Below the pieces are notes generated by a model, which saw only the letters and a program-made list of their open reading frames with translations, did not search any database and was not told where the DNA came from. A stretch of 56,810 nucleotides of DNA, taken from Rhodoferax sp. Lineage in GTDB: Bacteria > Pseudomonadota > Gammaproteobacteria > Burkholderiales > Burkholderiaceae_C. Numbering within the stretch: the first letter of the stretch is position 1; every line of letters starts with the position of its first letter. This document shows, piece by piece, positions 20,495 through 56,810 of the stretch. Location: the NCBI GenBank assembly GCA_013791765.1, contig VMTC01000133.1, forward strand, positions 1 through 56,810. Reading direction: 5' to 3'. Position numbers and translations under genes: made by a program.

Positions 20495-20540
20495 ATCAAA
20501 TAGCCCTCTAGCCTTCGTCAATGCTGTGTAGGCAGCTATC
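20495..20540 (-). repeat. 46-nt dispersed repeat, copy A (intergenic)
   Basis: Read on the minus strand it starts GATAGCTG, has GGCTAGAGG at offset 28 and ends CTATTTGAT. It shares exact spacing with six other copies in this window. It lies between the convergent fliE and GMC oxidoreductase genes. Confidence 0.85.
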
Positions 20541-20601
20541 AATTTAGGCATCATCCCAGCTTACGCTGCGCCAAACTGACGACAACGCACCGGCCCCAGG
20601 T

Positions 20602-22221
20602 TCACGCCAGCACCAGTTCTTGCCCGGTAAGCCGCTTGACCAGGCCCTGCGTCAGCCGGTTGACGATGCCGTAGATAGACAACTGAGGGTTGGCCCCGAT
20701 GCTGGTCGGAAAGATCGAGCCGTCATGAATCGACAGGTTTTCCAGCTGCCAATGCACGCCGTCGGGGCGCGTCACGCCCAGCGCCTCGGTGCCCCCCAAT
20801 CCGCAACCGCCCATCACGTGCGCGCTCACCACTTTGGTCAGCAATGGTTGCATGGCCAGGGCCGCAACCGCCTGTCGGCCCTCGGCCCAACTGTTGTAGG
20901 GACGTGCCATTTCGTGCATGGGTAACACCTGCCGCGCACCGGCGGCAAACTGGATCTCCATCATGGCCAGCAGGGCCCGGCGGGCCCCGTCCATGACAAA
21001 GTCGCTCAAAGGATAGTCCAACTCGGGCGAGCCGTCCCCGCGCAGTTTGACCTGCCCACCGGCCGCTTCTTCATGAAAACCGTCGCGCATCAGTGCCAGG
21101 ATCACATGGGTGTTGGGAAACTGCGCCAGCATATCGGCCTGTTGCTGACCGTAGCCAAACACCGTGGAGGCAAAGATCACCGGGTGCAGCGGCGGCGCCT
21201 CCAGCTTGAAGCCGATCGGGCCGTCAATCGGATCGGTGCCCAGAAAATGGTCGGTGTAGATGGTTTGCGGCGCGCCGGCCCAGGCCTCGACTTTTTGGCC
21301 CATGATGGCTGCGGACATCACCACCGGGTGCAAGAAGGTGCGCCGCCCCAGGCGCGCGTGCGGGTCCGGCGCCTTGGAGCGTAGCAGCAAGGCGGCCGAG
21401 TTGATCGCGCCCCCGGCCAGCACAAAATGCTTGGCGATGATGGTGGTTGCGCTGGCCCCCGGCCCCTCGGGGGCACTGTTGGGCTTGACTGCGATGCAGC
21501 GCACCGACTGCACGCGCCCGTTGAGCAACTCAAAGGTTTCGGCCCGGGTTTCGACCAGCAGCGTGGCACCCAGGTCCAGTGCTGCGGGAATGGTGGTCAC
21601 CAGCATCGACTGCTTGGCATTGGTCGGGCAGCCCAAGCCGCAGGAGCCCAGGTTCCAGCAACCCTTGACGTTGCGGGCAATCGCCGCCGCCGGTATGCCC
21701 AGCCGCGCCGCGCCGCGGCGCAACAAGTCGTTGTTTTCATTGGGCGCCACCAGCCAGGGGCCCATGCTCAGGCGCGTCTCGGCCTGCTGAAAATAGGGCG
21801 CCAGCGCATCGTTGTTGTAGTCGGGCAAGTTGAATTTTTGCTGCCAATAGTTCAGCGTATCCATCGGGGTTCTGAAGGAACTGGTCCAGTTGACAGTGGT
21901 GGAGCCGCCCACGCAGCGCCCCTGCAAAATCGTGACGCCCTTGTCCGAGGTCTTGCGCCCCGCACTTTCCTGGTACAGCGCGGGGTAGGCTTCGGCCTCT
22001 TTCTGGTTGAAGTCGCTGCTGCTCTTGAGCGGCCCTTCTTCAATGATCACCACCTTGAGACCGGCGCGCGCCAGCAATTCGGCGCTGATGCCGGCGCCAG
22101 CGCCCGAGCCAATGATGGCCACATCGCAGACAATTTTGTCGGGGCGCGCACCGTGCGGGCCGCCCAGCACTTTCCAGCCACGTTTTAATCCATCAAGGAT
22201 TGGATCCTGCAAACTGCTCAT
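20602..22221 (-). CDS. GMC-family FAD-dependent oxidoreductase
   Basis: A 539-residue flavoprotein. The N-terminal Rossmann motif is VAIIGSGAGAGISAELLARAG, the GMC signature is in LQGRCVGGSTTVNW, and the C-terminal catalytic region has the His of SAHVMGGCGLGG and Asn of GANPQLSIYG. A cysteine cluster (GCWNLGSCGLGCP) near residue 190 is typical of the subgroup that includes long-chain alcohol and sugar dehydrogenases. The substrate cannot be told from sequence. The next gene downstream in the genome order (upstream in transcription) encodes a Tat-type small protein that may be its partner. Confidence 0.88.
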   Translation of the reverse strand: MSSLQDPILDGLKRGWKVLGGPHGARPDKIVCDVAIIGSGAGAGISAELLARAGLKVVIIEEGPLKSSSDFNQKEAEAYPALYQESAGRKTSDKGVTILQGRCVGGSTTVNWTSSFRTPMDTLNYWQQKFNLPDYNNDALAPYFQQAETRLSMGPWLVAPNENNDLLRRGAARLGIPAAAIARNVKGCWNLGSCGLGCPTNAKQSMLVTTIPAALDLGATLLVETRAETFELLNGRVQSVRCIAVKPNSAPEGPGASATTIIAKHFVLAGGAINSAALLLRSKAPDPHARLGRRTFLHPVVMSAAIMGQKVEAWAGAPQTIYTDHFLGTDPIDGPIGFKLEAPPLHPVIFASTVFGYGQQQADMLAQFPNTHVILALMRDGFHEEAAGGQVKLRGDGSPELDYPLSDFVMDGARRALLAMMEIQFAAGARQVLPMHEMARPYNSWAEGRQAVAALAMQPLLTKVVSAHVMGGCGLGGTEALGVTRPDGVHWQLENLSIHDGSIFPTSIGANPQLSIYGIVNRLTQGLVKRLTGQELVLA

Positions 22222-22249
22222 AAAGTTGGAATTCGTCTTGGTAAAGGGT

Positions 22250-22756
22250 TCATATCTTCAGCGGGCCGGGGTAGCCCAGCGCGGGCCAGGTGCTGGCGTC
22301 TGAAAAGTAGGCCGCGCCCACAATCTCATGCAGCGCCTGGTAACTCTGCAGGCGCAAGCCCAGGCGTGAGCTGCGCATCGACTGCAAAGCCTGCTGCACC
22401 TCAACGACGCCGGCGCTGCGCCAATCGCTCGACAGCCCAGCCAGCGTGCGCCGCCCAACGCCAGTGCCCAAGATGCCGAGCAATTGCGACAACTCCGCCT
22501 GTGCGTGCGGCGGCAGCGCCTGCGCCAGCGCATCAATGCGCTGCAGCAAACCCGCCAACGCCGCCTGGTTGGCGGCGGGCTCCTTGGGCAGGGTGCCGTC
22601 CAAAATGGCACGCCCCACGCTGGCGAAAACCTCCTGCGCGCCCGGGCTCAAGCGTCCCTGCTGCAGGCCGGGCTGCAGCAAGGCCACCGTACCACCCGCC
22701 AGAATCAGCACTGTGGCCGATACCGCCCCCAACTTCAACCAGGTTCTTCTTTGCAT
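22250..22756 (-). CDS. Tat-signal small protein, probable partner of the GMC oxidoreductase
   Basis: A 168-residue protein that begins MQRRTWLKLGAVSATVLILAGG, a twin-arginine-like signal with a hydrophobic core. The body (SPGAQEVFASVGRAILDGTLPKEP, then ALAQALPPHAQAELSQLLGIL) resembles small subunits of membrane-bound dehydrogenases such as gluconate 2-dehydrogenase subunit 3. It lies 28 nt upstream of the GMC gene on the same strand, so the two probably form a secreted or membrane-facing dehydrogenase. I chose the ATG at 22756 since it starts right at the twin arginine; an extension of 10 residues is possible. Confidence 0.65.
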   Translation of the reverse strand: MQRRTWLKLGAVSATVLILAGGTVALLQPGLQQGRLSPGAQEVFASVGRAILDGTLPKEPAANQAALAGLLQRIDALAQALPPHAQAELSQLLGILGTGVGRRTLAGLSSDWRSAGVVEVQQALQSMRSSRLGLRLQSYQALHEIVGAAYFSDASTWPALGYPGPLKI

Positions 22757-22824
22757 GCTTCGAATATGGCACGCAAAAGTGCGCAATTTTTAGAGCCTGG
22801 CACCTAGGTAGACTCAGGGTTTAT

Positions 22825-23562
22825 ATGGAAGCCACCAACATCATCCGCGACGCGGTCACGCGCGTCAGCGCACTGCGACAAAGTGCCATCGACGACCCCG
22901 CGCTCGCAAACGCCCTCAGCGCGGTCAAGCGGCTGCAAGCGCGCCGCTTTGCCGGCACCTATGCGGACCTGCTGCAGTCTGAACAATACCGGCCCGCAGC
23001 CACCTTCTTTCTGCAGGAGCTCTACAGCGAGAAAGACTACACCTTGCGCGATGCGCAGTTTGCGCGCATTGCCAGTGGCCTGGAGCGGCTGTTCCCACAG
23101 CAAGTGGTGCAGACCGCGGTGTCGATGGCGCACTTGCACCACCTGACCGAAGAGCTCGATCTGGCCATGGCCCAAAGCTGGCTTAGCCACGGCGCGCTGG
23201 GCGAGGCGGCGCGCTATGTGGCCGCCTGGCGCACGGTCGGTCGGCCTGCGGATCGGGAGCTGCAATTAGCAACCGTGCTGGAGGTGGGCCAAGAGTTGGA
23301 CCGCCTCACGCGCACCCCGGGCCTGCGCATGATGCTCAAAATGATGCGCGGACCGGCCCGCATGATGGGCCTGAGTGCGCTGCAGCAATTTCTGGAATCA
23401 GGCTTTGACACCTTCGCCGCCATGGGGCGCAAGGGCGACGGCGCCCGCTATTTTCTGGGCACCGTGCGCGAGCGCGAAGCCGGGCTGATCGGACGCCTGT
23501 TTGCGCTTGATGCTGTCGCGTGTGAGACCGAAATCAGCCAGATACTGGGGCAAGCCCGGTAG
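22825..23562 (+). CDS. Conserved hypothetical protein
   Basis: A 245-residue, mainly helical, soluble protein. A stretch ATFFLQELYSEKDYTLRDAQFARI resembles a block found in uncharacterised proteobacterial proteins. I know no function for it. It is divergent from the Tat-signal gene and 46 nt upstream of the acyl-CoA ligase gene on the same strand, so they may be co-transcribed. The ATG at 22825 is preceded by a weak purine-rich site (CAGGG). Confidence 0.7.
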   Translation: MEATNIIRDAVTRVSALRQSAIDDPALANALSAVKRLQARRFAGTYADLLQSEQYRPAATFFLQELYSEKDYTLRDAQFARIASGLERLFPQQVVQTAVSMAHLHHLTEELDLAMAQSWLSHGALGEAARYVAAWRTVGRPADRELQLATVLEVGQELDRLTRTPGLRMMLKMMRGPARMMGLSALQQFLESGFDTFAAMGRKGDGARYFLGTVREREAGLIGRLFALDAVACETEISQILGQAR

Positions 23563-23608
23563 CGGCAAGCGACGGTTCTGGCTCAAAATCAGCGCCAGGA
23601 GAACCCAC

Positions 23609-25294: not shown

Positions 25295-25334
25295 GCCACG
25301 CACAAGAATCAAGTTTTTCAGACGCTACTAAAAA

Positions 25335-25380
25335 AATAGCTGTTCATGCACGTGGAATAAGGGCTAGAGGATAATTTAAC
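25335..25380 (+). repeat. 46-nt dispersed repeat, copy B (intergenic)
   Basis: It begins AATAGCTG, has GGGCTAGAGG at offset 26 and ends TAATTTAAC. It lies between the convergent acyl-CoA ligase gene and gspF. Confidence 0.85.
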
Positions 25381-25396
25381 CTAAAAACTCAGCCTC

Positions 25397-26632: not shown

Positions 26633-26646
26633 GGCAATGTTTAGGG

Positions 26647-28054: not shown

Positions 28055-30175
28055 TCAGAATTGGGGCTTGACGGCGGGGGTGGCGCCCAGCGGCTCCGGC
28101 GGCGCCGGCCGCTGGATCGCCGGCACCGAGCCCGGCAAGGCTGGCAACACCGGCGCCTCGTTGATCGGCGCCAGCCGGCTCGGCTTCGGCTGCGCGGCAT
28201 TCATGCCCGAGCGCATCAGCTCATAGCGGTCCAGCGACAGGTTGTCGCTGTCCTGGGCGTCACGCACCACCACCGGGCGCAGGAACACCATCAGGTTGGT
28301 CTTGTTGCGGGTGCGGGAATCGTTCTTGAAAAGATTGCCAAAGACCGGCACATCGCCCAGGCCCGGCACTTTCTGCTCGTTACCGGAGTACTTGTCCTGC
28401 AGCAGGCCGCCCAACACCACGATGCTGCCGTCGTCGACGAGCACGGTGGACTCGATCGTGCGCTTGGAGGTCGTCGGCCCGTTGACCGCCGTCTCCGTGC
28501 CGGCCTTGACCGCCGAAGTCTCCTGGTAGATCACGAGCTTGACCGTGCCGTTCTCGTTGATTTGTGGCTTGACCTTGAGCGTCAGGCCGACGTCCTTGCG
28601 CTCCACCGTGGTGAACGGGTTGACCGAGCCGCCACTGCCACCGCCACTGCCGGTGTTGGTGAATTGGCCGGTGATGAAGGGCACGTTTTCACCGATCACG
28701 ATCTTGGCCTCTTCGTTGTCCAGCGTCAGCAAATTGGGCGTGGACAGCACATTGCCGCTGCCGCTGCTCTCGAGAAAGTTGGCCAGGAAGCCCAGCACAT
28801 AAATGCCGTTGGTGCGCTGCACTGCCCCAAAATTGATGCCGGGAGCGGGGGCCACGGTGCCGGCTCCGGCGCCGGTGGCCAGGTTGATGATGTTTTTGCC
28901 AGCGGCGCCAAAGTTGGTGCCCAGCAGGCCAATGACGCCGTCGCCGGCTTTGCCCAGGGGGCCCTGCCACTGAATGCCGAACTCGGCGGCGCGGTCGGCG
29001 TTGACCTCCACAATCAAGCTCTCGACCAGCACCTGGGCGCGTCGGCCGTCGAGCCGGTCAATGACCGCGCGCAATTGCCGGTACTGCGGCTCGGGCGCGC
29101 TGATGATGAGCGAATTGGTGGCCACATCGGCCTGAATTTGCCCCCCAGTGGCGGACACAGCAACGGCGGCAACCACTGCCCCCGCCACGCCGGCGGGCGC
29201 CGCTGCTGCCGGCGCCTGGCCGCTCATGGCCGCGCGCAAGGTGGCGGCCAGTTTGGTGGCATCGGCGTTTTTAAGGTAGACCACATAAATATTACCGGCG
29301 TCGCCATTGGTGCTGGCTGCGGGCGGCTGGTCCAGTTTGTCCACCAGCGAGCGCACCAGCGCCACCCGGGCCGGATTCGCGGCACGCAAAATCAGCGCGT
29401 TGGAGCGCGGCTCGGCCATCAGGATGGTTTTGAAGGAGGTGTCGGCCTGACCTGGTGCCACCCCGGCGCCGGAGGACTCCACCAGGCGCAGCACCAGCGG
29501 CGCCAGATCGGTCGCAATGGCGTGCTTGAGCGGCAGAATCTGCACATCGGTGGCATTGGAGACATCGACCGCGGCAATGATGCGCGCCATGCGACGCAGG
29601 TTGTCGGCGTAGTCGGTGATGATCAGCGAGTTGGTGCCGGGGTTGACGTTGATGGTGTTGTTCGGGCTGATCAAAGGGCGCAGCACCGCCACCAGGTTGT
29701 TGGCGGACTCGAAGTTGAGCTTGAATATCTGCGTCGTGATCTGGTTGCCCAGCGCGCCGCCGACTGGCTCGTCGCTGACCGTCACGGCGCCACTTTGCAG
29801 CTTGGCGTCGGCCTCGGGCACCACCTTGTACAGCCCTGCGGACTCCACCATGGTGAATCCCTGCAGGCGCAGCGCCGCCTGAAACTGGTTCATGGCCACG
29901 CGCCGACTCACCGGCCGGTCTGTCACCAGCGTGATCAATCCCTTGACGCGCGGGTCCACCACCACATTGGCGCCGGTGATGGTGGCCATGGTGCGCGCCA
30001 CCGCCTCAATTTCTGCATTGCTGAAGTTCAGCGTAACGCCCTCCTGCACCCGCCCTGCAGGGCTGGTTTGCGCCCCTAAATTTACAGAAAATAGAGCGCT
30101 AGCCCCCGCCAATATTGCGTATGCAGCTATTGAATAAAGAGCATTCTTGGGATCGGTGGCAACGCGGAGTTTCAT
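28055..30175 (-). CDS. gspD: GspD, type II secretion outer-membrane secretin
   Basis: A 706-residue secretin with periplasmic N0-N3 domains ([33 protein letters not shown] is N0) and a C-terminal secretin barrel domain ([30 protein letters not shown]). It forms the multimeric outer-membrane channel. The signal peptide core (about residues 15-30) is encoded by copy C of the 46-nt repeat. A Gly/Ser-rich loop ([12 protein letters not shown]) lies in the barrel region. It follows gspN by 6 nt. Confidence 0.96.
30086..30131 (-). repeat. 46-nt dispersed repeat, copy C (in the gspD signal sequence)
   Basis: Read on minus: AATAGCTGCATACGCA..., GGGCTAGCGC at offset 26, then CTATTTTCT. It covers codons of about residues 15-30 of GspD, the hydrophobic core of its signal peptide. 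Confidence 0.8.
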
Positions 30176-31054: not shown

Positions 31055-31552
31055 TCAGCGCGCACTCAGGCTCAGCACCAGCGTGCCGTGCCAGCCGGCG
31101 GGCGCGCCACCGGCTGGCGCAGCAGCGCGCACCAGCCGCACCTCACTGGGCACGGCGCGCGCGGTCAGGCGCGCCTGCGCCAGCCACTGTGCCAGCGCGT
31201 CGGCGGAGATGCCTTTGGCGCTGAGCGTCACGCGTTCGCCCGCAACCGACAGTTGCGCCGTGCTGCCCAGCGATTTGACCGAGGCCTCCAGCAAACGCCG
31301 TGCGTCGTCAAAACTCAAGGGCGGCTGGGCTTGTAGCGCCTGGGCCTGGGCCTGCAGGCGCAGCATCTGCTGCCATTGGGCGTCCAGCAGCACGCGCTGC
31401 TGCTGCGCCGCCTTCAGGGTCGCCAGCGCGGGCGCCAGCGCCACACCCCAGAGCAAGGCCACCAGCACCAGCGCCAGCGCGCCCAGCAGCAGGCGCTGCT
31501 CGCGACGCGCCACCAAGCGCCAGCGCGCTTGCAGCTCGGTCAACAGCTTCAT
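31055..31552 (-). CDS. gspM: GspM, type II secretion protein M
   Basis: A 165-residue bitopic membrane protein. A cytoplasmic basic start (WRLVARREQRL) is followed by one membrane helix (LLGALALVLVALLWGVALAPALATL) and a periplasmic ferredoxin-like domain. It pairs with GspL in the inner-membrane platform. The ATG overlaps the gspL stop (ATGA), which indicates coupled translation. Confidence 0.9.
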   Translation of the reverse strand: MKLLTELQARWRLVARREQRLLLGALALVLVALLWGVALAPALATLKAAQQQRVLLDAQWQQMLRLQAQAQALQAQPPLSFDDARRLLEASVKSLGSTAQLSVAGERVTLSAKGISADALAQWLAQARLTARAVPSEVRLVRAAAPAGGAPAGWHGTLVLSLSAR

Positions 31553-32778
31553 GAGCCAGTCCCCTGTTTAATCACCAGGTTGTCGGCATCGACGTTGACG
31601 ACGTAGCCCTGGGGTTTGAGTTGAAAGGAGAGCGCCGCCACTTGCTCCGGACTCAGCGCAAGGCCCTTCAAACGCAGTTCACCGGCCATAAATTCAATAG
31701 CATTAGGCACAGTACCGGCGGGGGCTACAGCCCCAAAAGCCGTCAACATGCTTTCCAGATCACGGTTGGATGGCGCACCGCTGGCCTGCTGCAAGATGGC
31801 AAGCTCACGCGCCATCTGAATGGGAGCATCCACCACCACGCGCACCTGCGGGAAGGTCGTGGTCAACACCGCGCTAATGGCCTGGCGCTGGCTGCTGAGC
31901 AAGGATTTTTCTTTCCAGGCCCAGGCGTTCAGGCCTGCCAGGTTAACCACCAACAGCGCCAGCACGGCCACCCTAGCGGCGCGCCAGCGCGGCGCGCGCA
32001 GCAACTCGCGCCCGGCGTCAGTCCAGCGTTTGCGCGCTCGGGCACCGTGAGACGTGAGCAGATCAAATTGCGCCAGATCCCAGGGCGATTGCGCTGCCTG
32101 CAATTGACGCTGGCCACTGGGCTGCACGATCACGCTGCGCTGGAACAAGGCCTCAGCCAGCGCCACCACAGCGGGCTCGGCCACCACGCTCTTTTCTTCC
32201 ACCCCACCCAGCAACGCGGCGGCGTCGCGCGACAAGGGCAGCCTGGCGACGCTGCCGTGGGCTGCGCCCACCAGGAAAGCAGCCTCAAACTCACCGGTCA
32301 CAAACAGCGTGTCACGCAGGGCCTGCGGCGGGAACTCGGGCACGATGCGACTGGCCGCGCGCCCGGACTGCTCCAGCACCTGCAAGGCTGCGCGCAGCCA
32401 GGCGCGCTCGCACACTGCCACCCACACCGGCGCGTCAAGGGAGGGCTGCGGCTCCAGGGCGAAATGCAGCTGCGCGGTGTCGTCGAGCAGGCGGTCTTCA
32501 AGCAGGCCATCGAGCACCGCGCGCACACGCAAAGCACCGCCTTCCTGAAAAAAGCGCCGCCCCAGGGTGCCCTTGGGCAACTGCACCTGGTGCCAGGACA
32601 GGCGCTGCGCGGGCACCAGCGCCACCACCTCGCCCTCGGCTTTGCCCAGCAGCGGCAACAGCGCCAGCGGCGCACGCGACTGCTCGGCCAGCGTGCTGCC
32701 CTCAGGGCTCAGGACGTAGTCGTACAGGGCCGCCACGTCAAGCGGCTCTTCAGGAAGGGTAACGATCAGGGTGGTCAT
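31549..32778 (-). CDS. gspL: GspL, type II secretion protein L
   Basis: A 409-residue protein. Its cytoplasmic part has the actin-like GspL domain (ALLPLLGKAEGEVVALVPAQRLSWHQVQLP), followed by a membrane helix (ARVAVLALLVVNLAGLNAWAW) and a periplasmic domain. It recruits GspE to the inner membrane and binds GspM. The ATG at 32778 (MTTLIVTLPEE) matches the usual GspL start. A diverged copy (D) of the 46-nt repeat lies within the periplasmic coding part at about residues 346-361. Confidence 0.92.
   Translation of the reverse strand: MTTLIVTLPEEPLDVAALYDYVLSPEGSTLAEQSRAPLALLPLLGKAEGEVVALVPAQRLSWHQVQLPKGTLGRRFFQEGGALRVRAVLDGLLEDRLLDDTAQLHFALEPQPSLDAPVWVAVCERAWLRAALQVLEQSGRAASRIVPEFPPQALRDTLFVTGEFEAAFLVGAAHGSVARLPLSRDAAALLGGVEEKSVVAEPAVVALAEALFQRSVIVQPSGQRQLQAAQSPWDLAQFDLLTSHGARARKRWTDAGRELLRAPRWRAARVAVLALLVVNLAGLNAWAWKEKSLLSSQRQAISAVLTTTFPQVRVVVDAPIQMARELAILQQASGAPSNRDLESMLTAFGAVAPAGTVPNAIEFMAGELRLKGLALSPEQVAALSFQLKPQGYVVNVDADNLVIKQGTGS
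31696..31741 (+). repeat. 46-nt dispersed repeat, copy D (inside gspL)
   Basis: It begins AATAGCATTAGGCACA and has GGCGGGGGCTACAGC in the register seen in the other copies; the 3' end has diverged. It lies antisense to gspL and in its coding part. Similarity is weaker than in copies A, B, C and E. Confidence 0.55.
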
Positions 32779-39578: not shown

Positions 39579-40586
39579 ATGGGTGAATTTGAGCTGATTG
39601 AACGCTATTTCAAACGCCCTGAGCGCCACACGGCGCGGCTCGCCCTGGGTATTGGCGACGACTGCGCGTTGCTGCCCACCCAGCCCGGCACACAGTTAGC
39701 CATTTCCTGCGACATGCTGGTCGAAGGCCGCCACTTTGTGGCCACGACGGACGCGTTCAAGCTGGGCCACAAAGCACTGGCCGTGAACCTGAGCGACCTG
39801 GCCGCGTGTGGCGCCCGCCCGCTGGCCTTCACCCTGGCGCTGGCGCTACCGCGCGCCGACGAGGCCTGGCTGGCGCCATTTGCGCAGGGCTTGCTGGCGC
39901 TGGCAGACGCGCACGGCTGCGAGCTGATCGGCGGCGACACCACGCAAGGGCCGCTCAACATCTGCATCACCGTCTTTGGCGAAGTGCCGGTGGTGAATGG
40001 CCGATCGCAAGCGCTGTTGCGCTCGGGCGCTCAAGGAGGCGACGACCTCTACGTGAGCGGCAATCTGGGCGACGCAAGGCTGGCGCTGGAGGTGTTTCGC
40101 GGCAGTGTCTCCGTCCCGCAGGCCGTGTTCAACGCGGCCCGTGTGCGCATGGAAACCCCAAGCCCGCGCGTGGCGCTGGGGCTGGCGCTGCGCGGCATTG
40201 CCAACGCCGCCATTGACGTCAGCGACGGCCTGCTCGGCGACCTCGGCCACATCCTCAAACAATCAAAGGTCGGGGCCACGGTGGATGCCGATTTGACTAC
40301 TACTTTAATAGCTGCTAACGCTTATTACACGCGGGCTAGAGGCCAATTTGATATAAATATTGCGCCAGAACAGTGGCGCGCCTGGGCGCTCTCGGGTGGC
40401 GACGATTACGAACTGCTGTTCAGCGCCCCGCAGGCCCAGCGTGCAGCGGTGGCTGCGGCGGCGCAAAGCAGCCAGACCCCCGTCACCCGCATCGGCCAGA
40501 TTGACGCCGAGCGCGGCCTGCGCCTGGTCGATGCCCAAGGGCAGCCGCTGCCCAACACCTACACCTCGTTCGACCACTTTGCCTGA
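39579..40586 (+). CDS. thiL: Thiamine-monophosphate kinase
   Basis: A 335-residue enzyme that phosphorylates thiamine monophosphate to thiamine diphosphate, the last step of cofactor synthesis. It has the ThiL blocks GIGDDCALL, AISCDMLVEGRHF, KALAVNLSDLAACGA and ISGGDDYELLF-like (LSGGDDYELLFSAP). Copy E of the 46-nt repeat is embedded in frame at about residues 243-258. The local codon use there is AT-rich and unlike the rest of the gene, but the frame is intact and conserved motifs on both sides are present. Confidence 0.94.
   Translation: MGEFELIERYFKRPERHTARLALGIGDDCALLPTQPGTQLAISCDMLVEGRHFVATTDAFKLGHKALAVNLSDLAACGARPLAFTLALALPRADEAWLAPFAQGLLALADAHGCELIGGDTTQGPLNICITVFGEVPVVNGRSQALLRSGAQGGDDLYVSGNLGDARLALEVFRGSVSVPQAVFNAARVRMETPSPRVALGLALRGIANAAIDVSDGLLGDLGHILKQSKVGATVDADLTTTLIAANAYYTRARGQFDINIAPEQWRAWALSGGDDYELLFSAPQAQRAAVAAAAQSSQTPVTRIGQIDAERGLRLVDAQGQPLPNTYTSFDHFA
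40307..40352 (+). repeat. 46-nt dispersed repeat, copy E (inside thiL)
   Basis: It begins AATAGCTGCTAACGCT, has GGGCTAGAGG at offset 26 and ends AATTTGAT. It is one of the best-preserved copies and is read through in the thiL frame. Confidence 0.88.
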
Positions 40587-44444: not shown

Positions 44445-44895
44445 GGCACCAGAAAATCATGCCTGCCGACGGTATTTTTTGGGCTTGCGAATGCTGCCCA
44501 ACCCATCGACGAAACATTGCATATTTGCCAGGCCCTCGCGCAATGAGTACGAGGGTTGAGGCCGGTGCTTTGTCAAGGCGAGTGGATGCGATGTGGCTAC
44601 GAGCAGGGAATTTAACTGGCATCTGATCCCAAGCGACCTAATATGTCATATTAGAATATCATTTTAAAGAATAAAAATGATAGTTTTGACGCTTGGCCCA
44701 CATGAATACTTTGAATAACGCTATTCTAAATATAGCATTATTGGCATGAAAAACGTCGCCTAAGTGCAATATACGCATATATAAACACGGGGAACAAAGG
44801 GGCACACTCAGACTTCAATGCTGGCTGAGCGACAGATGACCGCCGTTTTTGCTTAAGGTAGTGCCATTGGAATCTGACCCCAATTAACCTTCGAA
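44445..44895. other. Gene-free AT-rich stretch
   Basis: No supportable gene. The part 44641-44790 is strikingly AT-rich against the genome background and holds small inverted repeats such as ATCATTTT/AAAATGAT. Near its right end is the first copy of a 24-bp direct repeat (44866-44889). It looks like foreign or decayed DNA. Confidence 0.5.
44866..44889. repeat. 24-bp direct repeat, left copy
   Basis: ATTGGAATCTGACCCCAATT plus four more bases; an identical copy lies at 46392-46415. The two copies bracket the ATPase gene. The unit is itself partly palindromic (ATTGG...CCAAT), as REP-like sequences are. Confidence 0.85.
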
Positions 44896-46391: not shown

Positions 46392-46415
46392 ATTGGAATC
46401 TGACCCCAATTAACC
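46392..46415. repeat. 24-bp direct repeat, right copy
   Basis: Identical to 44866-44889. It lies between the CGTCATTGCGA palindrome and the 3' flank of the group II intron. Confidence 0.85.
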
Positions 46416-46468: not shown

Positions 46469-48312
46469 ATAGGGGGCAGCCATTCTAGGCTGCGCCCCTG
46501 CCACACCACCCGGCATGCGGGTCCGCACCGGGCGGTTCGAGAAGTTGAGGTCATGAGAGGCGGGGCAATCCGAGTCGATCGAAATATGCAATGGTCAGCA
46601 CGCTATTGAGCAGCATGGCACTGTTGTGCCACCAGCGATGGGAATTGGCCGCCACCTGTCTGGCCACCTCAAAACTGGCACCCATGGCGCGCACTTCCCG
46701 AAACATGGTCTTGACATGTCTCCAATGCTTGAGTTGCAGGGCTCTGAGCCTGTGACGCAACCATTCGTCCAGCGTTCGCCAGACTCCTGGCGTTTGCGCC
46801 AGACCAAAATAAGCCTTCCAACCCAACATATAGGGCCGCAGTCGCTGCACCACTTCACCCATGCTGCGTCCACCCGAGCGCCGCGTCAGTTGCCTGACGC
46901 GCTGCTTGAACGTAGCCATCGGCTTGGCTGCCACCTTGAACTTGACCTCTGCACCCTTGGCCGCCCATAAGCTGTAGCCCAGAAACTTGCGCCCGAAGAC
47001 GCTGGCCACTGCGCTTTTGGCTTGATTGACCTGCAGGTGCAGTTTTGCATACATCCCCTCCAGCAAGGCCATCATCCGCTCCCCCGCACGTCGGCTGTGA
47101 ACGTAGACGTTACAGTCATCGGCATACCGTGCGAAGCTGTGACCGCGCCGCTCCAATTCCTTGTCCACTTCGTCGAGGAAGACGTTGGCCAGCAGCGGGC
47201 TCAGTGGCCCGCCTTGCGGCGTGCCCTTGTCGCGCTGTAGCACCACGCCGCCCGCCATGATGCCGCTGTTCAGGTACGCCCGAATCAGCCGGATAACTCC
47301 AGCATCGTCTATGCGTCTGCGTAGGCGGTCAATCAGGATGTCGTGGTTGACCCGGTCGAAGAATTTCTCCAGGTCAACATCGACCACGACTCTTTTGCCG
47401 GACTGTACGTACGCTTTTGCGGCCTTCACCGCTTGGTGCGCACTTCGTGCGGGTCGAAAGCCGTAGCTGTGCTCGCTGAATGTGGGGTCCAAAATTGGCT
47501 GCAGCACTTGCAGCAGTGCTTGCTGGATCAGTCGATCCGCAACCGTCGGGATGCCCAACTCGCGCTGGCCCCCATCTGGTTTGGGGATCGTTACCCGGCG
47601 TACCGCACTGGGCCGGTACGTCCCCTGCAGCAGTTGGCTGCGAAGTTCGGGCCAGTTCGTGCGAATCATCTGGGCGGTTTGCTCGATGTCGAGCCCATCA
47701 ACCCCGGGCGCACCCTTGTTGGCCTTGACCCGCTTTCACGCTGCTTGCAGGTTCTCTCTCGTCAGGGCTGCGCCGAGCAGTCCTGACCCTGTATTGGCCT
47801 TGTCACATCGCGGGCCGCAGGCTTCGTCGCTGGTGGGAGCACGCGCAGCTTCACCGCACGCTACTGCCACCCGCCCCGCTTGCACGGGCATCTGACGCAT
47901 TGCCTTTGACATGGGCTCAATGACTCCTTCTCGTTTGGCCCTTCGCTGCAGACTTCTGGCCTTGAGGGCCCCATCTGCAGCTACTACGGCCTCTGCTGAC
48001 TTCTCGCTCCAGGTTGCCCTGTCGCCCTTTCAGGCGTGAGGCGAGATCTCCCCAGGTAAGAACGCTCTCCTTCATTGCACAACCGCCGGATTTACGCCAC
48101 TTCGCCTTGATCACGAGAGCTTCGCGGTTTCTCGCCCGCTCGCCCTGCTTGGCAGCGCCTTCTATCCGGTTCTTGTTCATCGGCTCACAATTTATGCTCC
48201 ACGCTTCCTCCCCACACTCGGTCACCCTCATGCAGTTGCGCTTCACTTCGTTCGTTGTGATCAACTTACGACGGGACTTGCACCCGTAGGAGTGCGCCCA
48301 TGCTGGGCGCAC
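46469..48312 (-). mobile_element. Group II intron, class C-like
   Basis: The minus-strand 5' end begins GTGCGCCCAGCATGGGCGCA at 48312 and continues to ACGGGTGCAAGTCCCGT, a standard group II domain I start. After the maturase frame, a domain V-like hairpin (about 46500-46540: CGAACCGCCCGG...CCGGGTGG) and a domain VI stem lead to CCCTAT at about 46469. The 5' end lies 11 nt past a porin terminator hairpin with a T-run, the usual target of class C introns. Exact 3' end is estimated. About 400 nt of ribozyme precede the maturase gene. Confidence 0.8.
46551..47912 (-). pseudogene. ltrA: Group II intron reverse transcriptase/maturase with in-frame UGA
   Basis: The main open part (from the ATG at 47669) encodes 372 residues. 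The RT domain includes IPKPDGGQRELGIPTVADRLIQQALLQVL, YGFRPARSAHQA, TPQGGPLSPLLANVFLDEVD and the catalytic FARYADD. A maturase X domain follows. No HNH endonuclease is present, as in class C introns. Upstream, the frame extends to the ATG at 47912 but is broken by TGA at 47738-47736, where other maturases usually have Trp (LQAA*KRVKANKGAPGVDG). The N-terminal 58 residues are therefore separated unless the stop is read through. Probably inactive. Confidence 0.85.
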
Positions 48313-51623: not shown

Positions 51624-51675
51624 GCATGCTGATGCATACCATGAGGCATATCATTCAATAAAAGGATATCTCAGA

Positions 51676-52328: not shown

Positions 52329-52384
52329 CCACGTTGCCACGTGCACAGCATTGTTCGTGAGCCTAGTGACAAAAGGGGCCAGGC

Positions 52385-52618: not shown

Positions 52619-52659
52619 CCCGTCATGGTCTGCGGCGCCCAGGATGCTATTCTTCGCGC

Positions 52660-53010
52660 ATGAAACTCATCACCAAATGGCTGCTCAGTGCCGCCGCCCT
52701 GCTCGCGGTGGCCTATCTTTACAGCGGCGTGTCCGTCGCCAGCTTTGGCGCGGCTTTGATTGCCGCGTTCGTGATTGGCCTCTTTAACATGCTGCTGCGC
52801 CCGCTGCTGGTGCTGCTGACGCTGCCGGTGACGGTGGTCACGCTCGGGCTGTTCTTGTTTGTCATCAACGCGTTGATGTTCTGGTCAGCCGCCGGGGTGC
52901 TGAGCGGCTTTCATGTGAACGGCTTTGGCGCGGCGCTGCTGGGCTCGCTGATCTACTCGGTGTTTGGCATCGTGATCGACTCAGCGGTCGAGCGTCTGTT
53001 CTTTAAGTAG
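52660..53010 (+). CDS. Holin superfamily IV-like membrane protein
   Basis: A 116-residue protein with four hydrophobic helices (KWLLSAAALLAVAYLY; AALIAAFVIGLFNMLL; VVTLGLFLFVINALMFWSAA; AALLGSLIYSVFGIVIDSA) and the conserved NMLLRPLLVLLTLPVTVVTLGLF block of the 'phage holin family' (PF04020). Despite the name it is a normal chromosomal inner-membrane protein in most proteobacteria, with unknown role. It overlaps the M48 protease gene tail-to-tail by 30 nt. Confidence 0.85.
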   Translation: MKLITKWLLSAAALLAVAYLYSGVSVASFGAALIAAFVIGLFNMLLRPLLVLLTLPVTVVTLGLFLFVINALMFWSAAGVLSGFHVNGFGAALLGSLIYSVFGIVIDSAVERLFFK

Positions 53011-54615
53011 CAATTCCACCTGGCGTTGCCGGGTGTCGATGATCGAGGCGTCGATGTGGTCGGCCGCCGTCTGGCTGCTGCCCCCCGCGCGCGTAAAGGC
53101 CTGGGCCGCCTTGAAACGGTCTAGCGCTGCCGCGTAATCGAGCCGCGCCACCTGCGCTTCGGCGTCCGCGCGCAGGGCGCGCAAAGTCTGGTTCTGCGCA
53201 CTTTGCACCCGTGACAACAATTGCCAGGCCTGCGCATCGCGCGGCTTCAAATCAACCCAGGCTTGCAGACGCGCCGCGCTAGCGCTGAGCGCGGCGCTGG
53301 TCGCGTGTGCCGGTTCGCCCGCTCCAGGTTGCAGCGCGATTTGTGCGGCCAGCAGCAACTCGGGGCGCGCCACGGTGGGCGCCGGGTCTGGCGCGCCTGG
53401 CGCAGCGGGAACGGCTGGGGTGCTGACCGCGCTCAAGGCGGCTTGCGCGGCGCTGGCGTCACCCGCGCGCAAGGCGATTTCAGCCTGCAACAGCTGTGCC
53501 AGTCGCGCCGCGCTGGCGTCACCGGCCACCAAGGGACGCAGGCGCGCCAGGTAGCTGCTCGCCGAGGCAAAGTCACGCAACTGGCTGGCCGCGAGCGCGG
53601 CGCCATACAAGGCGCCAGCCTGGCGCGGCGCGGCCTGGGTACGCAAACTGGCGCTGTCGGCTTCAAGCTGCGTGGCCCGCAGGGCGTCAACGTCCGCGTT
53701 GGCCAGCACCCGGGCACGCGCTGCCACCAGGGCGTGCTCCAGCGTGACCGCGACCTGCGCTGGCGCTGGCGCGGCCAGCGCCTGGCGCGCCTGCATGTCG
53801 GCAATGCGCTCGGTGGTGAGCGGGTGGCTGCGCAGGTAAGGGTAGGCGCCGTTGTCGTTCAGGCGCGAGGCTTGCTGCAGCTTGTCGAACATCGAGACAA
53901 AACCCTGCGCCTCAAAGCCAGCCTCGGTCATGACGCCATAGCCCACTCGGTCGGCCTCGCGCTCCATGTCACGCGAGAAGTTGAGCTGGTTTTGCGCCGC
54001 CACCGCCTGGCCGCCGACGATCAGCGCATTGGCGGCATCGGCACTCTTGCTCGCGGCCAGTGCGCCCAGAATCATGGCGCCAATCATCCAGGGCGTCATT
54101 TGCCCTTGTTTGGCCATCAGGCGCGAGATGTGGCGCTGCGTGACGTGGCTGAGTTCGTGCCCCAGCACCGAGGCCAGTTCGTCGCGGTTGCTCACCACCG
54201 CGATCAGCCCCAGGTGCACACCGAGGTAGCCCCCGGGCAAGGCAAAGGCGTTGACGGTGCGGTCGCGCCCGAGCATGACTTCCCAGGCAAAGCGCTGGCT
54301 GAGTTCGGGGGAAAGGTCACCGCGCGCGCGCGCTGCCACCAGCAGCGGCTGCCAGATGGCCTGCACGTACTCGGCCAGCACTGGGTCGTCCAGGTAGTCT
54401 GGGTCACGGTAGAGTTCACGCGCAATGCGGTCACCCAGGCGGCGCTCGTCGCTGCTGCTCAGGTCGCTGGTGTCGCCCAGAGTGGGCATCTGCGAGGCGC
54501 TTGGCTGGGCCCATGCCGGGCTCAGGGCCGCGCTGGTAAATGAAGCTAAAACAATAGCTAATAACGCCCTGTTGACGAGGGGTAATGCCCTATTTGATCT
54601 AAATTTATGACTCAA
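52981..54615 (-). CDS. M48 metalloprotease with TPR-like tail (BepA/YfgC type)
   Basis: A 544-residue periplasmic zinc protease. The signal peptide ends LSPAWAQ. The zinc motif is LGHELSHVTQRH with the third ligand Glu in MEREADRVGYGVM. The C-terminal 250 residues are Ala-rich helices of the TPR kind. BepA-like proteins check outer-membrane protein assembly. No ATG exists in the conserved frame near the start; the likely start is TTG at 54615, giving MSHKFRSNRALPLVNRALLAIVL. Copy F of the 46-nt repeat covers codons of about residues 6-21, the beginning of the signal peptide. Confidence 0.88.
   Translation of the reverse strand: MSHKFRSNRALPLVNRALLAIVLASFTSAALSPAWAQPSASQMPTLGDTSDLSSSDERRLGDRIARELYRDPDYLDDPVLAEYVQAIWQPLLVAARARGDLSPELSQRFAWEVMLGRDRTVNAFALPGGYLGVHLGLIAVVSNRDELASVLGHELSHVTQRHISRLMAKQGQMTPWMIGAMILGALAASKSADAANALIVGGQAVAAQNQLNFSRDMEREADRVGYGVMTEAGFEAQGFVSMFDKLQQASRLNDNGAYPYLRSHPLTTERIADMQARQALAAPAPAQVAVTLEHALVAARARVLANADVDALRATQLEADSASLRTQAAPRQAGALYGAALAASQLRDFASASSYLARLRPLVAGDASAARLAQLLQAEIALRAGDASAAQAALSAVSTPAVPAAPGAPDPAPTVARPELLLAAQIALQPGAGEPAHATSAALSASAARLQAWVDLKPRDAQAWQLLSRVQSAQNQTLRALRADAEAQVARLDYAAALDRFKAAQAFTRAGGSSQTAADHIDASIIDTRQRQVELLLKEQTLDR
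54553..54598 (+). repeat. 46-nt dispersed repeat, copy F (start of the M48 gene)
   Basis: It begins AATAGCTAATAACGCC, carries GAGGGGTAATGCC in the place of the GGGCTAGAGG core and ends CTATTTGAT. Spacing is identical to copy E. It encodes, antisense, the N-terminal signal sequence of the M48 protease. Confidence 0.7.
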
Positions 54616-54806
54616 AATGGATACTCGTTGATGGGCGTTGCAGAGGGCCAAGGCGCTGACCAGAGGGCATGGCAGGGCGCCGACTCTGGCGCCGCTCGCG
54701 CCAGCGCCGACGGTGCCAATAGCGCCATCGTATGATGCGCGTCGGATATGAAGTTTGTGTAAATTTTGCACTTGCCCCCTCTTTTGAACTGTAACGAATT
54801 CCATCC

Positions 54807-55298
54807 ATGAACGCTCTCACCCATTTTGACGCCCAGGGCCAAGCCCACATGGTGGACGTGGCTGCCAAGGCCGCCACCCACCGCATCGCCATTGCCGGGG
54901 GCCGCATTGAGATGCTGCCGGGCACACTCGCCATCATTGAGGCCGGCAGCGCAAAGAAGGGCGACGTGCTGGGTATTGCGCGCATCGCCGGCATCATGGC
55001 GGCCAAAAAGACCAGCGAGTTGATCCCCTTGTGCCACCCGCTGGCGCTGACCCACGTGGCGGTTGATTTTGAAGTGAAACAGGCCGATGACACCGCGCCC
55101 GCCAGCGTCTACTGCCGAGCGACGGTGGAAATCGTGGGCGCCACCGGCGTCGAGATGGAGGCACTCACCGCCGTGCAGGTGGCGCTCCTGACCATTTACG
55201 ACATGTGCAAGGCGGTTGACCGCGGCATGACGATGGGTGACTGCAAGCTGCTTGAAAAGCACGGCGGCAAGTCGGGCAGTTTTGTCAACGGAACTTGA
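54807..55298 (+). CDS. moaC: Cyclic pyranopterin monophosphate synthase
   Basis: A 163-residue MoaC of full length. Conserved segments: [17 protein letters not shown] (with the functional Cys and His), [35 protein letters not shown] and the C-terminal KSGSF. It makes cPMP, the second step of molybdenum cofactor synthesis, from the product of MoaA. The last part of the gene is duplicated in inverted orientation behind the nearby transposase gene. Confidence 0.96.
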
Positions 55299-55357
55299 TG
55301 GGCGCGGCGACGCGTGGGCACCTGTCGGGTTACACCCTGCGGGCTAACACGACCTAC
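55259..55357 (+). repeat. Left arm of a 98-bp inverted repeat (moaC 3' end plus REP)
   Basis: It consists of the last 40 nt of moaC, 24 nt of spacer and a REP unit. Its near-identical inverted copy lies at 56067-56164; by eye the two differ at about seven places. Confidence 0.85.
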
Positions 55358-55407
55358 GGGGCTGCCGGGTTTTGTAGGTCGTGTTAGCCGCAAGGCGTAA
55401 CCCGACA
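55323..55407. repeat. REP pair upstream of the transposase gene
   Basis: Two REP units in inverted orientation: TGTCGGGTTACACCCTGCGG...ACACGACCTAC (55323-55357) and GTAGGTCGTGTTAGCCGCAA...CCCGACA (55374-55407). They form one long hairpin directly before the RAYT start codon. Confidence 0.92.
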
Positions 55408-55413
55408 AACCCC

Positions 55414-55950
55414 ATGCAGTACCGGCGCGCCTTCGTCCCCGGCGCAACGCTTTTTTTTACGGTGGTGACCCATGACCGACGGCCCCTGTTGGCTTCGCCC
55501 GAGGCGGTTGATGTCTTGCGCTCAGCTTTTCGGGCCGTGCGCCAATCACGGCCCTTCACGGTTGACGCCATGGTGGTCATGCCCGACCACCTGCACTGCA
55601 TTTGGACGCTGCCGCCCGAAGATGGCGACTTTGCGACGCGCTGGCGGCTCATCAAGACCTGGTTTAGCAAACGGGCCTCGCCTGAGCTTGGCATCAGGCC
55701 CGATTCATCCCGGCTTGCCACGCTCGGTCAAGCCATTTGGCAACACCGGTATTGGGAGCATCTGGTCCGTGATGACGACGATTACGCACGCCACGTTGAT
55801 TACATCCACTACAACCCCGTCAAGCACCGCCTGGCTGCATCGGCGTCGGCTTGGCCCTATTCCAGTTTTGACCGCTACGTGGCGGCAGGTATTTACCCTG
55901 CGGATTGGGGCCAGAGCAGTCTGAATCTTCAGGGTGTCGGTCGTGAGTGA
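55414..55950 (+). CDS. REP-associated tyrosine transposase (RAYT)
   Basis: A 178-residue Y1 HUH transposase of the IS200-like/TnpA_REP family. The HUH motif is in VMPDHLHCIW and the catalytic Tyr is in VDYIHYNPVKHRL. Other family blocks are GATLFFTVVTHDRRPLL and WQHRYWEHLVRDDDDYARH. Such proteins cleave single-stranded REP DNA and are thought to spread REP elements. The ATG at 55414 lies 6 nt after the REP hairpin. Five REP units flank the gene. Confidence 0.93.
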   Translation: MQYRRAFVPGATLFFTVVTHDRRPLLASPEAVDVLRSAFRAVRQSRPFTVDAMVVMPDHLHCIWTLPPEDGDFATRWRLIKTWFSKRASPELGIRPDSSRLATLGQAIWQHRYWEHLVRDDDDYARHVDYIHYNPVKHRLAASASAWPYSSFDRYVAAGIYPADWGQSSLNLQGVGRE

Positions 55951-55976
55951 GACGGGAAGTTGAGGCTGTAGCAAGG

Positions 55977-56010
55977 TGTCGGGTTACGCCCTGCGGCTAA
56001 CACGACCTAC
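55977..56010 (+). repeat. REP unit downstream of RAYT
   Basis: TGTCGGGTTACGCCCTGCGG...ACACGACCTAC, same orientation as the first unit of the upstream pair. It pairs with the inverted unit at 56067. Confidence 0.92.
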
Positions 56011-56066
56011 CAACACCCGGGAACCCCGAACCTCTGCCCGACCCGCCGCCATGCCTTTGCAGCCCC

Positions 56067-56164
56067 GTAGGTCGTGTTAGCCGCAAGGCGTAACCCGACA
56101 GGTGCCCACGCGTCGCCGCACCCATCAAGTACCGTTGACAAAACTGCCCAACTTGCCGCCGTGC
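56067..56164 (-). repeat. Right arm of the 98-bp inverted repeat (REP plus moaC 3' end copy)
   Basis: The REP unit at 56067-56100 is followed by the reverse complement of the moaC tail: on minus it reads CACGGCGGCAAGTTGGGCAG, then TTTTGTCAACGG and a TGA, matching the last codons of moaC (KSGSFVNGT stop) with a few changes. Confidence 0.88.
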
Positions 56165-56176
56165 CATTGCAGCCCG

Positions 56177-56210
56177 GTAGCTCGTGTTAGCCGCAAGACC
56201 TAATCCGACA
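56177..56210 (-). repeat. Degenerate fifth REP unit
   Basis: GTAGCTCGTGTTAGCCGCAA then GACCTAATCCGACA; it differs from the unit at 56067 at a few positions. A preceding CATTGCAGCCC segment also matches the DNA before the 56067 unit, so it is part of a tandem duplication. Confidence 0.8.
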
Positions 56211-56256
56211 TTCGTTTGCAGAACTACGGAGCAGTCTCGGCGGATTGACGGGCAAC

Positions 56257-56810
56257 TCAGCCGCCCGGCGCGCTCTCGGGAAACGCCGCCCGGTAGCGCA
56301 GGCGGTAAAACTGGGCTTGCTCAAAGTGCCCGAGCAGCATGGCGCTGTCGATCAGCTTGTCGATCACGCGCGGCTCGGGTGAAAAATGCAGCAGCGCCAG
56401 CGCCTGCTGGTGCAACTGCGCTGCATTGGCCGGGGTCAAGGCGGTGGTGGTCAGCTTCGCAAAGCGCAACTGGTCCTGGAACAGCCAACTGCTCGTGATT
56501 TTGGCCAGCGGCTGCACCCGGTAGGCCGGCGCGCGCAGCTTGGGGCTCAGGTAGAGCTGACTGACACGCTGATAGTCCCAGGCGGCATACGCTGCGATTA
56601 CCATTATTACGATAGCAAACAATATAGGCAGGACGTGGGATATAGGCCTAAAAGGCTTGAAATTGTTGTTAAAAAATCGCACCCCACCCGCAGGCTTGCG
56701 CCACAGCAGCAAGACGCTCAGGCCAGCGGCCACCTGAAACGGCCCGTACCACAGCGGGTACTCCAGCAGACTGTGCAGCAGGATCACAGCCAGCACCGAC
56801 CAGGCCAGTT
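56257..56810 (-). CDS. Wzy/PglL-type O-oligosaccharide ligase, C-terminal part (cut by window edge)
   Basis: The visible 184 residues are the C-terminal end of a polytopic membrane protein. HSLLEYPLWYGPF is the signature at the start of the C-terminal domain of PglL/TfpO-like protein glycosylation ligases (Wzy_C_2), followed by membrane helices (QVAAGLSVLLLW and ILFAIVIMVIAAYAAW) and a helical periplasmic tail. The frame is open to 56810, so the start is outside the window. Diverged copy G of the 46-nt repeat overlaps the coding part at the beginning of the second helix. It probably transfers glycans to pilin or polymerises/ligates O-antigen; which one cannot be told here. Confidence 0.82.
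   Translation of the reverse strand, partial: LAWSVLAVILLHSLLEYPLWYGPFQVAAGLSVLLLWRKPAGGVRFFNNNFKPFRPISHVLPILFAIVIMVIAAYAAWDYQRVSQLYLSPKLRAPAYRVQPLAKITSSWLFQDQLRFAKLTTTALTPANAAQLHQQALALLHFSPEPRVIDKLIDSAMLLGHFEQAQFYRLRYRAAFPESAPGG
56611..56656 (+). repeat. 46-nt dispersed repeat, copy G (in the ligase gene, diverged)
   Basis: It begins GATAGCAAACAATATA, has GTGGGATATAGG at the position of the GGGCTAGAGG core and continues CCTAAAAGG. Same spacing as the other copies but more mismatches. Antisense to the ligase gene. Confidence 0.5.

Follow-up and report, generated by a model that had tools for sequence, protein, structure and literature searches.

We show that a repeat in a 56,810-nt stretch of a Rhodoferax sp. 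contig (VMTC01000133.1; the window hereafter) is a motif of about 55-68 nt, that occurs in hundreds of copies per genome and holds one shared position within a gene in 14 genera while its sequence dialect changes, which is hard to account for by transposition or by ordinary selection at individual sites; the upkeep and rewriting of dispersed motifs thereby become directly testable in laboratory strains. In our analysis, a DUS-like recognition motif that would be kept by selection or by biased recombination fits best, and we tentatively favour, at somewhat below an even chance, a genome-wide recognition motif retained at old, fixed places and most likely acting in a manner similar to uptake or self-recognition.

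The initial annotation had described seven copies of a 46-nt repeat in exact register, five of them inside genes. All seven copies exceed the controls when scored with a matrix built from 70 copies, none of which comes from the window (Table 1): the top control score is 0.9 for 455 kb of reversed sequence and -21 for 400 kb from two low-count relatives, so the diverged copies D and G are also real, which a simple 25-position template could not tell, placing them at chance (17/25 versus 16-18 in five shuffles). The absence of indels was borne out in the whole genome, in which 83 of 85 gapped matches carry the 21-nt spacer and the remaining two lie inside true copies; the reversed pattern with a gap has no match in the genome, and a spacer one nucleotide too long has none in the 4.9-Mb genome of G121. 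Two of the seven copies, A and C, are on the minus strand. The repeat unit stands, but its length was underestimated, as conservation covers approximately -16 to +52 when counted from the A of ATAGC, and the middle, taken to be 20 variable nucleotides, is in part conserved. A simple gene caller puts three copies (D, E and G) in genes and the other four in intergenic DNA; the count of five hinges on the choice of start codons, since C and F sit within longer open frames (28055-30175 and 52981-54804), of which the caller rejected the extra N-terminal part.

Table 1. Motif copies in the window with their matrix scores, and two host genes.
Feature	Positions	Strand	Score	Remarks
Copy A	20488..20555	-	53.7	between convergent genes
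Copy B	25320..25387	+	61.0	between convergent genes spaced 102 nt apart
Copy C	30079..30146	-	63.7	between tandem genes spaced 132 nt apart
Copy D	31681..31748	+	22.8	inside 31549-32778(-), opposite strand to gene
Copy E	40292..40359	+	84.5	inside thiL, sense orientation
Copy F	54538..54605	+	49.7	between divergent genes
Copy G	56596..56663	+	39.3	inside 56257-56796(-), opposite strand to gene
Extra diverged copy	44673..44740	-	21.2	overlaps the 44716 copy head to head
Extra diverged copy	44716..44783	+	28.7	shares a GCTA..TAGC centre with the 44673 copy
Host gene of copy D	31549..32778	-		gene call and orthologue alignment
thiL (thiamine-monophosphate kinase)	39579..40586	+		PDB kinases, best E 3.6e-71; Pfam AIRS, AIRS_C

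The genome contains 415 matches with at most two mismatches, balanced between the strands (199/216), compared to 24 for the reversed pattern (16 and 8); this excess and the fixed spacer dispel the concern that copies might occur at chance frequency or with random spacing. The presence proposed for the Comamonadaceae holds across the family but not for every genus: the motif is abundant in part of one GTDB family, and none of 146 genomes from other families of the order has more than 21 matches. Among 70 copies, 22 lie inside genes in both orientations, 18 in convergent gaps and only three between divergent genes, where they are depleted, copies being commoner at the 3' ends of genes and in convergent gaps. 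Some form inverted pairs or adjoin T runs, and others nearly exactly fill intergenic gaps of 60-80 nt. Within genes, 21 of the 22 copies score above every one of 2000 synonymous recodings of the peptide encoded there (copy G of the window has a z of 6.1 over such recodings), which shows a motif at the nucleotide level, although an inserted repeat would give the same result.

The middle of the motif differs by genus and is constant within a genome, as seen in depth for three genera and from few copies for others. Despite these dialects, places are largely retained. When four genomes of one genus were compared in all 12 ordered pairs, a counterpart was found for 125 of 163 locatable copies, the filled-site comparisons ranging from 5/5 and 18/19 at best to 5/10 at worst, while a small contig of G312 gave a counterpart for only one of eight; from the alignment coordinates we infer that G121 carries a copy at the same place as copy C. 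In 72 orthologous pairs, selected with both members above the score cut, identity is 86% in the 24 most informative columns, as it is in the flanks, and 49% in the 24 least informative; orthologues are only moderately closer to each other than unrelated copies of the same genomes (77% and 30%, respectively).

Of 20 high-copy genomes, 18, from 14 of 16 genera, have the motif at identical codons of thiL, two copies being marginal and G190 being judged from one of two thiL comparisons only. These copies are written in the local dialect and encode a peptide that is not conserved; in all five genomes with an own-genus matrix, it is this matrix that gives the thiL copy its best fit, the g32 matrix containing one thiL copy, that of G031, among its 120 rows. 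The two marginal scores (18 in G064 and 16 in G178) do not surpass the top score, 18.9, that this matrix reaches by chance in 400 kb of controls, so these two copies rest on position. Of the control genomes, 200 kb of G133 yields two hits of at least 12 (18.9 and 14.9) with the matrix from the genus of G004, whose search of G197 yields none, and because of the G133 hits its scores of 15-19 are weak by themselves. Gene positions 100-600 on the sense strand serve as a control for thiL, with 0/80 passing and a maximum of 9.8; on the opposite strand 18/80 pass, a useless control because the G004-genus matrix is nearly palindromic. Presence of the thiL copy is patchy on the tree, with 16 changes versus a shuffled mean of 20. 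The loop hosting it has a median length of 51 residues with and 47 without the motif, not the 23 additional residues of an added unit.

The same overlay without added unit length is observed in other conserved proteins. The host gene of copy D, which we take to be gspL-like, is also filled in G121, G303 and G305 (scores 42, 52 and 22) and weakly in G300 (13); four relatives without a copy align there without gaps, and ungapped alignment of the motif region holds in eight relatives overall, with or without the motif. A strong copy in rsmB of G226 (two-matrix score 86) lies where the protein is two residues shorter than E. coli RsmB, and in lipB the motif overlies conserved sequence in the same way, albeit weakly.

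These observations would fit a model according to which a putative trans-acting DNA-binding factor prefers motif-bearing DNA, and recurrent recombination of the preferred DNA keeps and rewrites copies wherever the sequence tolerates them, as at 3' gene ends and in protein loops. The dialects would then follow changes in this reader factor, which may act in uptake or in another self/non-self or chromosome process. DUS of the Neisseriaceae are described as 10-mers with clade dialects, intragenic sites and inverted pairs at terminators (PMC3630211), and the motif resembles them and the USS of the Pasteurellaceae, as covered by that source, in its many copies, its dialects, its location in and between genes and its inverted pairs near terminators. 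It differs from the DUS described there, which belong to another bacterial family, in being 55-68 nt long and carrying 49-68 bits over 68 nt. This content speaks against an uptake function, as it is far above both the 13.7 bits needed for marking about 640 sites and the content of the DUS 10-mers. The stronger form of the model, in which a long, genome-wide uptake-type or self-marking signal of about five times the DUS length would have its dialect rewritten at hundreds of fixed positions, some of them in the codons of conserved metabolic genes, whenever the reader changes, is possible but in our view doubtful.

Alternatively, the motif may be the binding site of a putative chromosome-organising or regulatory protein, maintained site by site through ordinary selection, with no biased recombination, which we consider rather unlikely. 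Orthologous persistence and the selection-like pattern of conserved columns agree with such a site, as does the depletion between divergent genes (three copies out of 70, compared to 18 in convergent gaps). The motif is moreover absent from thiL in whole genera, i.e. Variovorax (0/9) and Limnohabitans (0/7), and nearly lost in the sister species G214, with 16 matches versus 415 and 306, as if the reader had been lost. The 49-68 bits at hundreds of sites nonetheless far exceed what marking would require, a concerted change of dialect at that many sites would be slow by point selection alone, and the copies are spaced no more evenly than random (CV 0.82 versus 0.76-1.21).

Spread as a non-autonomous mobile repeat of the REPIN, MITE or Rickettsia palindromic element type, moved by a transposase and homogenised by gene conversion, is an origin that we likewise consider rather unlikely. 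The hundreds of alike copies, the nearly filled gaps, the in-frame copies in genes and the near-identical motif cores in g32 are what such a repeat would leave behind. Species also differ in presence and absence: some intergenic copies of one species are missing in a close one, the filled sites showing a net gain of tens of nucleotides, as insertion would give, but no target duplication or terminal inverted repeat was noticed by eye among the filled and empty pairs listed. The RAYT-type Y1 transposase looked like a strong candidate for the motor, its gene carrying a copy at the 3' end in 15 of 20 genomes, until thiL, as a control gene, proved to carry the motif as often (18/20). The link fails this control, being no better than that of thiL, and the transposase gene is flanked by another inverted repeat, of the AATTGGGGTCAGA..CCAATT type, seen by eye upstream in 12 of 20 genomes. 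The specific orthologue occurs in 282 of 299 genomes, many with background motif counts, and Y1_Tnp in 222 of 299, and by eye neither tracks motif copy number; a close orthologue (82%) is present even in the low-count G214, and no orthologue was found at E 1e-20 in G040, G163, G256 and G270, which have 60-167 matches. REP/REPIN systems with a RAYT (TnpA-REP) likewise have hundreds of short repeats, concerted within a genome; REPs have a GT[AG]G tetranucleotide at the foot of a hairpin, with subclass 2.6 and class 3 as exceptions (PMC6006769), and the consensus of the motif has no such foot with a hairpin and no general covariation. Rickettsia palindromic elements are also found in frame in unrelated genes, but those described are about 150 bp long and integrated into genes (PMC10969869), whereas the motif adds little or no net length and its sites are common to several genera. 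Occupation of the same place in different dialects across genera, and of gspL, rsmB and lipB without gain of a unit, also conflict with mobility, and judged from these sequences plain transposition would explain the data poorly.

The initial annotation had also read the repeat as a structured, hairpin-like element, which we reject as a general reading: only neighbouring columns share high mutual information, base-pair covariation is not general, and in three genera the real arms pair scarcely better than arms shuffled between copies. The clearest exception among the 15 arm pairs listed is one in the genus of G004 (z 3.4; 1 of 300 shuffles as high), with lesser ones reached by 11, 15 and 25 of 300 shuffles; the consensus arms of this genus are exactly complementary (GCGCTTG/CAAGCGC) and 78% of their cells are paired, without covariation. 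At the gathering threshold Rfam matches none of the motif places; its two matches in the window are both to group II introns. An RNA element acting in transcripts as a terminator or 3' stabiliser is very improbable, as the excess at 3' ends and in convergent gaps and the inverted pairs or adjoining T runs of some copies are outweighed by the lack of general Watson-Crick covariation, the missing Rfam match and the intragenic location, in either orientation, of 22 of the 70 copies.

The motif shares with the BRE of Bordetella and Comamonadaceae, reported in Polaromonas, Rhodoferax and Acidovorax, a dispersed and partly intragenic occurrence (PMC3110155). Identity is ruled out on length, GC content and number, as BRE are described as about 90 bp long, with 69% GC in Bordetella and at most 29 copies, sometimes in tandem (PMC3110155), and the motif is AT-rich at its ends and has hundreds of copies. 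Our search of the open-access literature found no paper that, by its title or the abstract displayed, describes the motif.

The motif also bears on annotation. The first approximately 22 positions of Pfam PF06231 (DUF1010) correspond to the antisense motif in 19 of 20 loci checked. Part of this domain is thus the motif in translation, as are short segments of some other proteins; PF06231, with matches in 45 of 299 genomes, is filed as a protein family, whereas the motif is DNA and more widespread. Beyond the family, 1,750 plasmid records, give a match, mostly from Escherichia, Klebsiella and Salmonella; among 30 rows listed, 25 fall under a DUF1010 gene. The motif may also serve as a fingerprint of DNA origin: in one record of this DUF1010 kind the copy is complete and sits in a DUF1010 cassette flanked by dfrA12 and aadA2, which would suggest an origin in the Comamonadaceae.

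A position matrix of 68 columns, built from 70 copies all lying outside the window, scores the seven window copies (A-G) at 22.8-84.5, its maximum over 455,510 reversed bases being 0.9, showing that these copies are real; across 400 kb from the control relatives G197 and G133 (GC 0.69), whose counts are at background level, the top score was -21. Copies A and C lie on the minus strand, and two extra copies were revealed by the matrix scan (first table). The initial annotation had proposed a 46-nt unit, for which we find a conserved span of about -16 to +52 around ATAGC instead (GCTAttAatttaATAGCTgcttacGCAtatt..ACGNGGGCTAGAGGCcNATTT....TAAA). The exact register it described holds genome-wide: with the spacer left free between 8 and 34, 83 of 85 exact matches had a spacer of 21, the remaining two lying inside true copies, and the control gave 0. 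In the window genome, a 4.17-Mb draft whose ThiL has Rhodoferax ferrireducens as nearest named relative (80%), ATAGC-N21-GGCTAGAGG, allowing two mismatches at most, matches 199+216 times versus 16+8 times for the reversed pattern, i.e. above chance. The matrix density of one copy per 6.5 kb extrapolates to ~640 copies per genome.

Coordinates of extra copies, DUF1010 loci and other repeats
Feature	Location	Strand	Remark
Extra copy	window 44673	minus	matrix scan
Extra copy	window 44716	plus	matrix scan
AATTGGGGTCAGA(T/C)(T/C)CCAATT-type repeat	window 44866-44889
AATTGGGGTCAGA(T/C)(T/C)CCAATT-type repeat	window 46392-46415
GTAGGTCGTGTTAGCCGCAAGGCGTAACCCGACA-type inverted repeats	window 55250-56210		several copies
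Group II intron RNA	window 47938-48231	minus	two matches above gathering score
CCCCGCTGCGTTGCCACAGCGGGG-like hairpins	window 42715, 43810, 48312		three, terminator-like
Other dispersed repeat, ~88 nt	L102:16495-16582		G004; many copies, many places
DUF1010 locus	L303:552-842		plasmid pP11b
DUF1010 frames in a row	G120:C1:1577472-1590608		~300 nt apart
DUF1010 frames in a row	G226:C1:3768331-3773126		~300 nt apart
DUF1010 frames in a row	G230:C1:2176808-2179740		~300 nt apart

Presence across Comamonadaceae, as initially suggested, is borne out, though not for every genus, by pattern counts ranging from 0 to 480 among 299 genomes from the window's GTDB family, compared to at most 21 in the 146 genomes outside the family among 150 drawn order-wide, the genome with 21 having 21 in its control as well. 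A few of the out-of-family genomes exceed their own small control (for example G437, 11 versus 3; G397, 9 versus 1; G396, 13 versus 7, the listed G396 matches being without the conserved middle). Four members drawn from the window's genus gave 415, 306, 87 and 16 matches; the last, G214, shows that the motif can be nearly lost inside one genus, and its comparison with the two sister genomes having 306-415 matches is useful for finding the putative reader protein.

The motif ends, GCTA..ATAGC and GCTA.AGGC..ATTT, are common to the genera, and the middle varies by genus as a dialect, being TGCTTACGCATATTCCACGNGG-like in the window's genus, TGCTTAGGCAATAAATACGCCGG in g32, and AGCGCTTG.....CAAGCGCT in g5, the genus of G004. 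We assign g32 to the Polaromonas-named lineage because the thiL copy of locus L226 is the same as in its member G239.

Copy E lies in thiL, and among 20 genomes from 16 genera, picked for high copy number (65-480 pattern matches each) and a listed RAYT locus, 18 genomes (14 genera) carry a copy at matching codons and in matching orientation, G146 and G190 having none at this site. Two of the 18 are marginal (G064, score 18; G178, 16), the same matrix having produced a single score of 18.9 across 400 kb from control genomes. The encoded residues differ (e.g. IAANAYYTRARGQF, IAAQAINTKTTTQL, IAAHALFTGASACF) and the nucleotides track the local dialect, the own-genus matrix being the best fit in all five genomes having one. 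Among the best 80 of at least 582 named thiL loci, 23 carry the motif (Polaromonas-named 8/11, Rhodoferax-named 3/6, Simplicispira 2/2, Variovorax 0/9, Limnohabitans 0/7), with a wide gap between the lowest positive (16.1) and the highest negative score (4.1), and 0/80 at control gene positions 100-600. On a tree built without the thiL loop the trait requires 16 changes compared to a shuffled mean of 20 (6-10 of 500 shuffles being as low); its presence is therefore patchy on the tree. We read this as a single old origin followed by many losses, repeated gain being possible.

Copies in coding sequence look like overlays rather than whole-unit insertions. In the gspL-like gene of copy D, eight relatives align ungapped in the motif region, four with the motif (G300 weakly) and four without, i.e. 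no match scoring at least 12 in those loci. The median ThiL loop length is 51 aa in the 23 loci that carry the motif versus 47 in the 57 that lack it, the motif amounting to 23 codons; the window's own loop is longer than in PDB homologues. The protein at the strong rsmB copy of G226 (two-matrix score 86) is 2 residues shorter there than E. coli RsmB, the weaker lipB copy of G004 (53; G226 35; no copy in G295) lies over a protein motif whose alignment with a PDB lipoyltransferase needs one gap, and the copy in the tRNA nucleotidyltransferase of G226 adds a few residues compared to one PDB homologue and none compared to another. For 21 of 22 intragenic copies, none of 2000 synonymous recodings of the encoded peptide scores as high; an inserted repeat would behave likewise. 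It speaks against overlay as the sole process that some intergenic copies are present in one species and absent in another, the net gain amounting to tens of nucleotides; that the motif is a mobile repeat under strong homogenisation seems rather unlikely to us.

Within one genus, 125 of 163 locatable copies have a counterpart in 12 ordered comparisons of four genomes (second table). Identity in 72 orthologous pairs is 86% at informative columns, a figure biased upward by the score cut applied to both pair members, 49% at uninformative columns and 86% in flanks, versus 77% and 30% at informative and uninformative columns of unrelated copies. The stronger point for maintenance is that counterparts are recognisable though adjacent columns have far diverged; by eye, copies are likewise recognisable in G239, G031 and G309 where intergenic flanks align poorly.

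Counterparts of motif copies at orthologous sites
From	Counterparts found
G004	G226 16/18, G295 13/17, G142 5/10
G226	G004 16/19, G295 17/24, G142 5/10
G295	G004 13/16, G226 18/19, G142 6/11
G142	G004 5/6, G226 5/5, G295 6/8
(against two short pieces)	G311 5/5, G312 1/8

Taken together, these features resemble DNA uptake sequences more closely than any repeat class known to us: the places are fixed, dialects change in place, both strands are used, genes gain little length, whole lineages have lost the motif and it survives in protein loops. In contrast, motif length and information content do not fit (53 bits in the window's genus, 68 in g32 and 49 in g5, with 13.7 bits needed to mark ~640 sites). 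We tentatively propose that the motif may serve uptake-like self-recognition. Being the site of a chromosomal protein is a less likely reading, on a par with the mobile repeat. A simple gene caller places 22 of the 70 copies (455 kb) inside called genes, 15 on the opposite and 7 on the same strand, 25 in tandem and 3 in divergent gaps, 2 at edges and 18 in or overlapping convergent gaps, although intergenic DNA totals 55 kb and convergent gaps account for just 7.3 kb. Several copies fill gaps of 60-80 nt almost exactly, and copy spacing along the genome is compatible with random. The hairpin-like structure initially suggested was not supported as a general feature, mutual information being limited to neighbouring columns and arm pairing in three genera approximating that with shuffled partners, apart from a single arm pair in g5 that clearly departs from this (z 3.4); an RNA role is very improbable.

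In 15/20 genomes a motif copy, antisense in 14 of them, lies at the 3' end of a RAYT-type Y1 transposase gene. This does not single the gene out, since thiL reaches 18/20, and the orthologue occurs in 282/299 genomes, mostly as one match each, many of these genomes having motif counts at background level, whereas it was missed in four with 60-167 motif matches. Upstream of this gene, AATTGGGGTCAGA(T/C)(T/C)CCAATT-type repeats were seen by eye in 12/20 genomes (flanks of L183-L202), a similar one occurring twice in the window. The ~88-nt repeat of G004 is possibly the published BRE.

The motif consensus matched 1,750 plasmid records, the most frequent genera being Escherichia (712), Klebsiella (685) and Salmonella (194), most matches spanning ~71% of the query; 25 of the 30 matches listed fall under DUF1010. 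In the one such record inspected, a full motif (score 58) sits within a DUF1010 gene that has dfrA12 on one side and aadA2 on the other, which hints that this cassette may derive from Comamonadaceae. Residues 31-95 of the cassette protein match PF06231, the DUF1010 family. The profile opens with the motif in antisense reading, as seen in one register in 19 of 20 loci matching from profile position 1-2; the twentieth lies near a contig end, where coordinates are uncertain. DUF1010 matches occur in 45/299 genomes, and the rows of such frames would resemble chromosomal integron cassette arrays. The g32 consensus gave no plasmid match. In two Comamonadaceae plasmids examined, copies are intergenic or at gene ends, and a g5-like consensus matched one record of a phage collection, labelled Salmonella.
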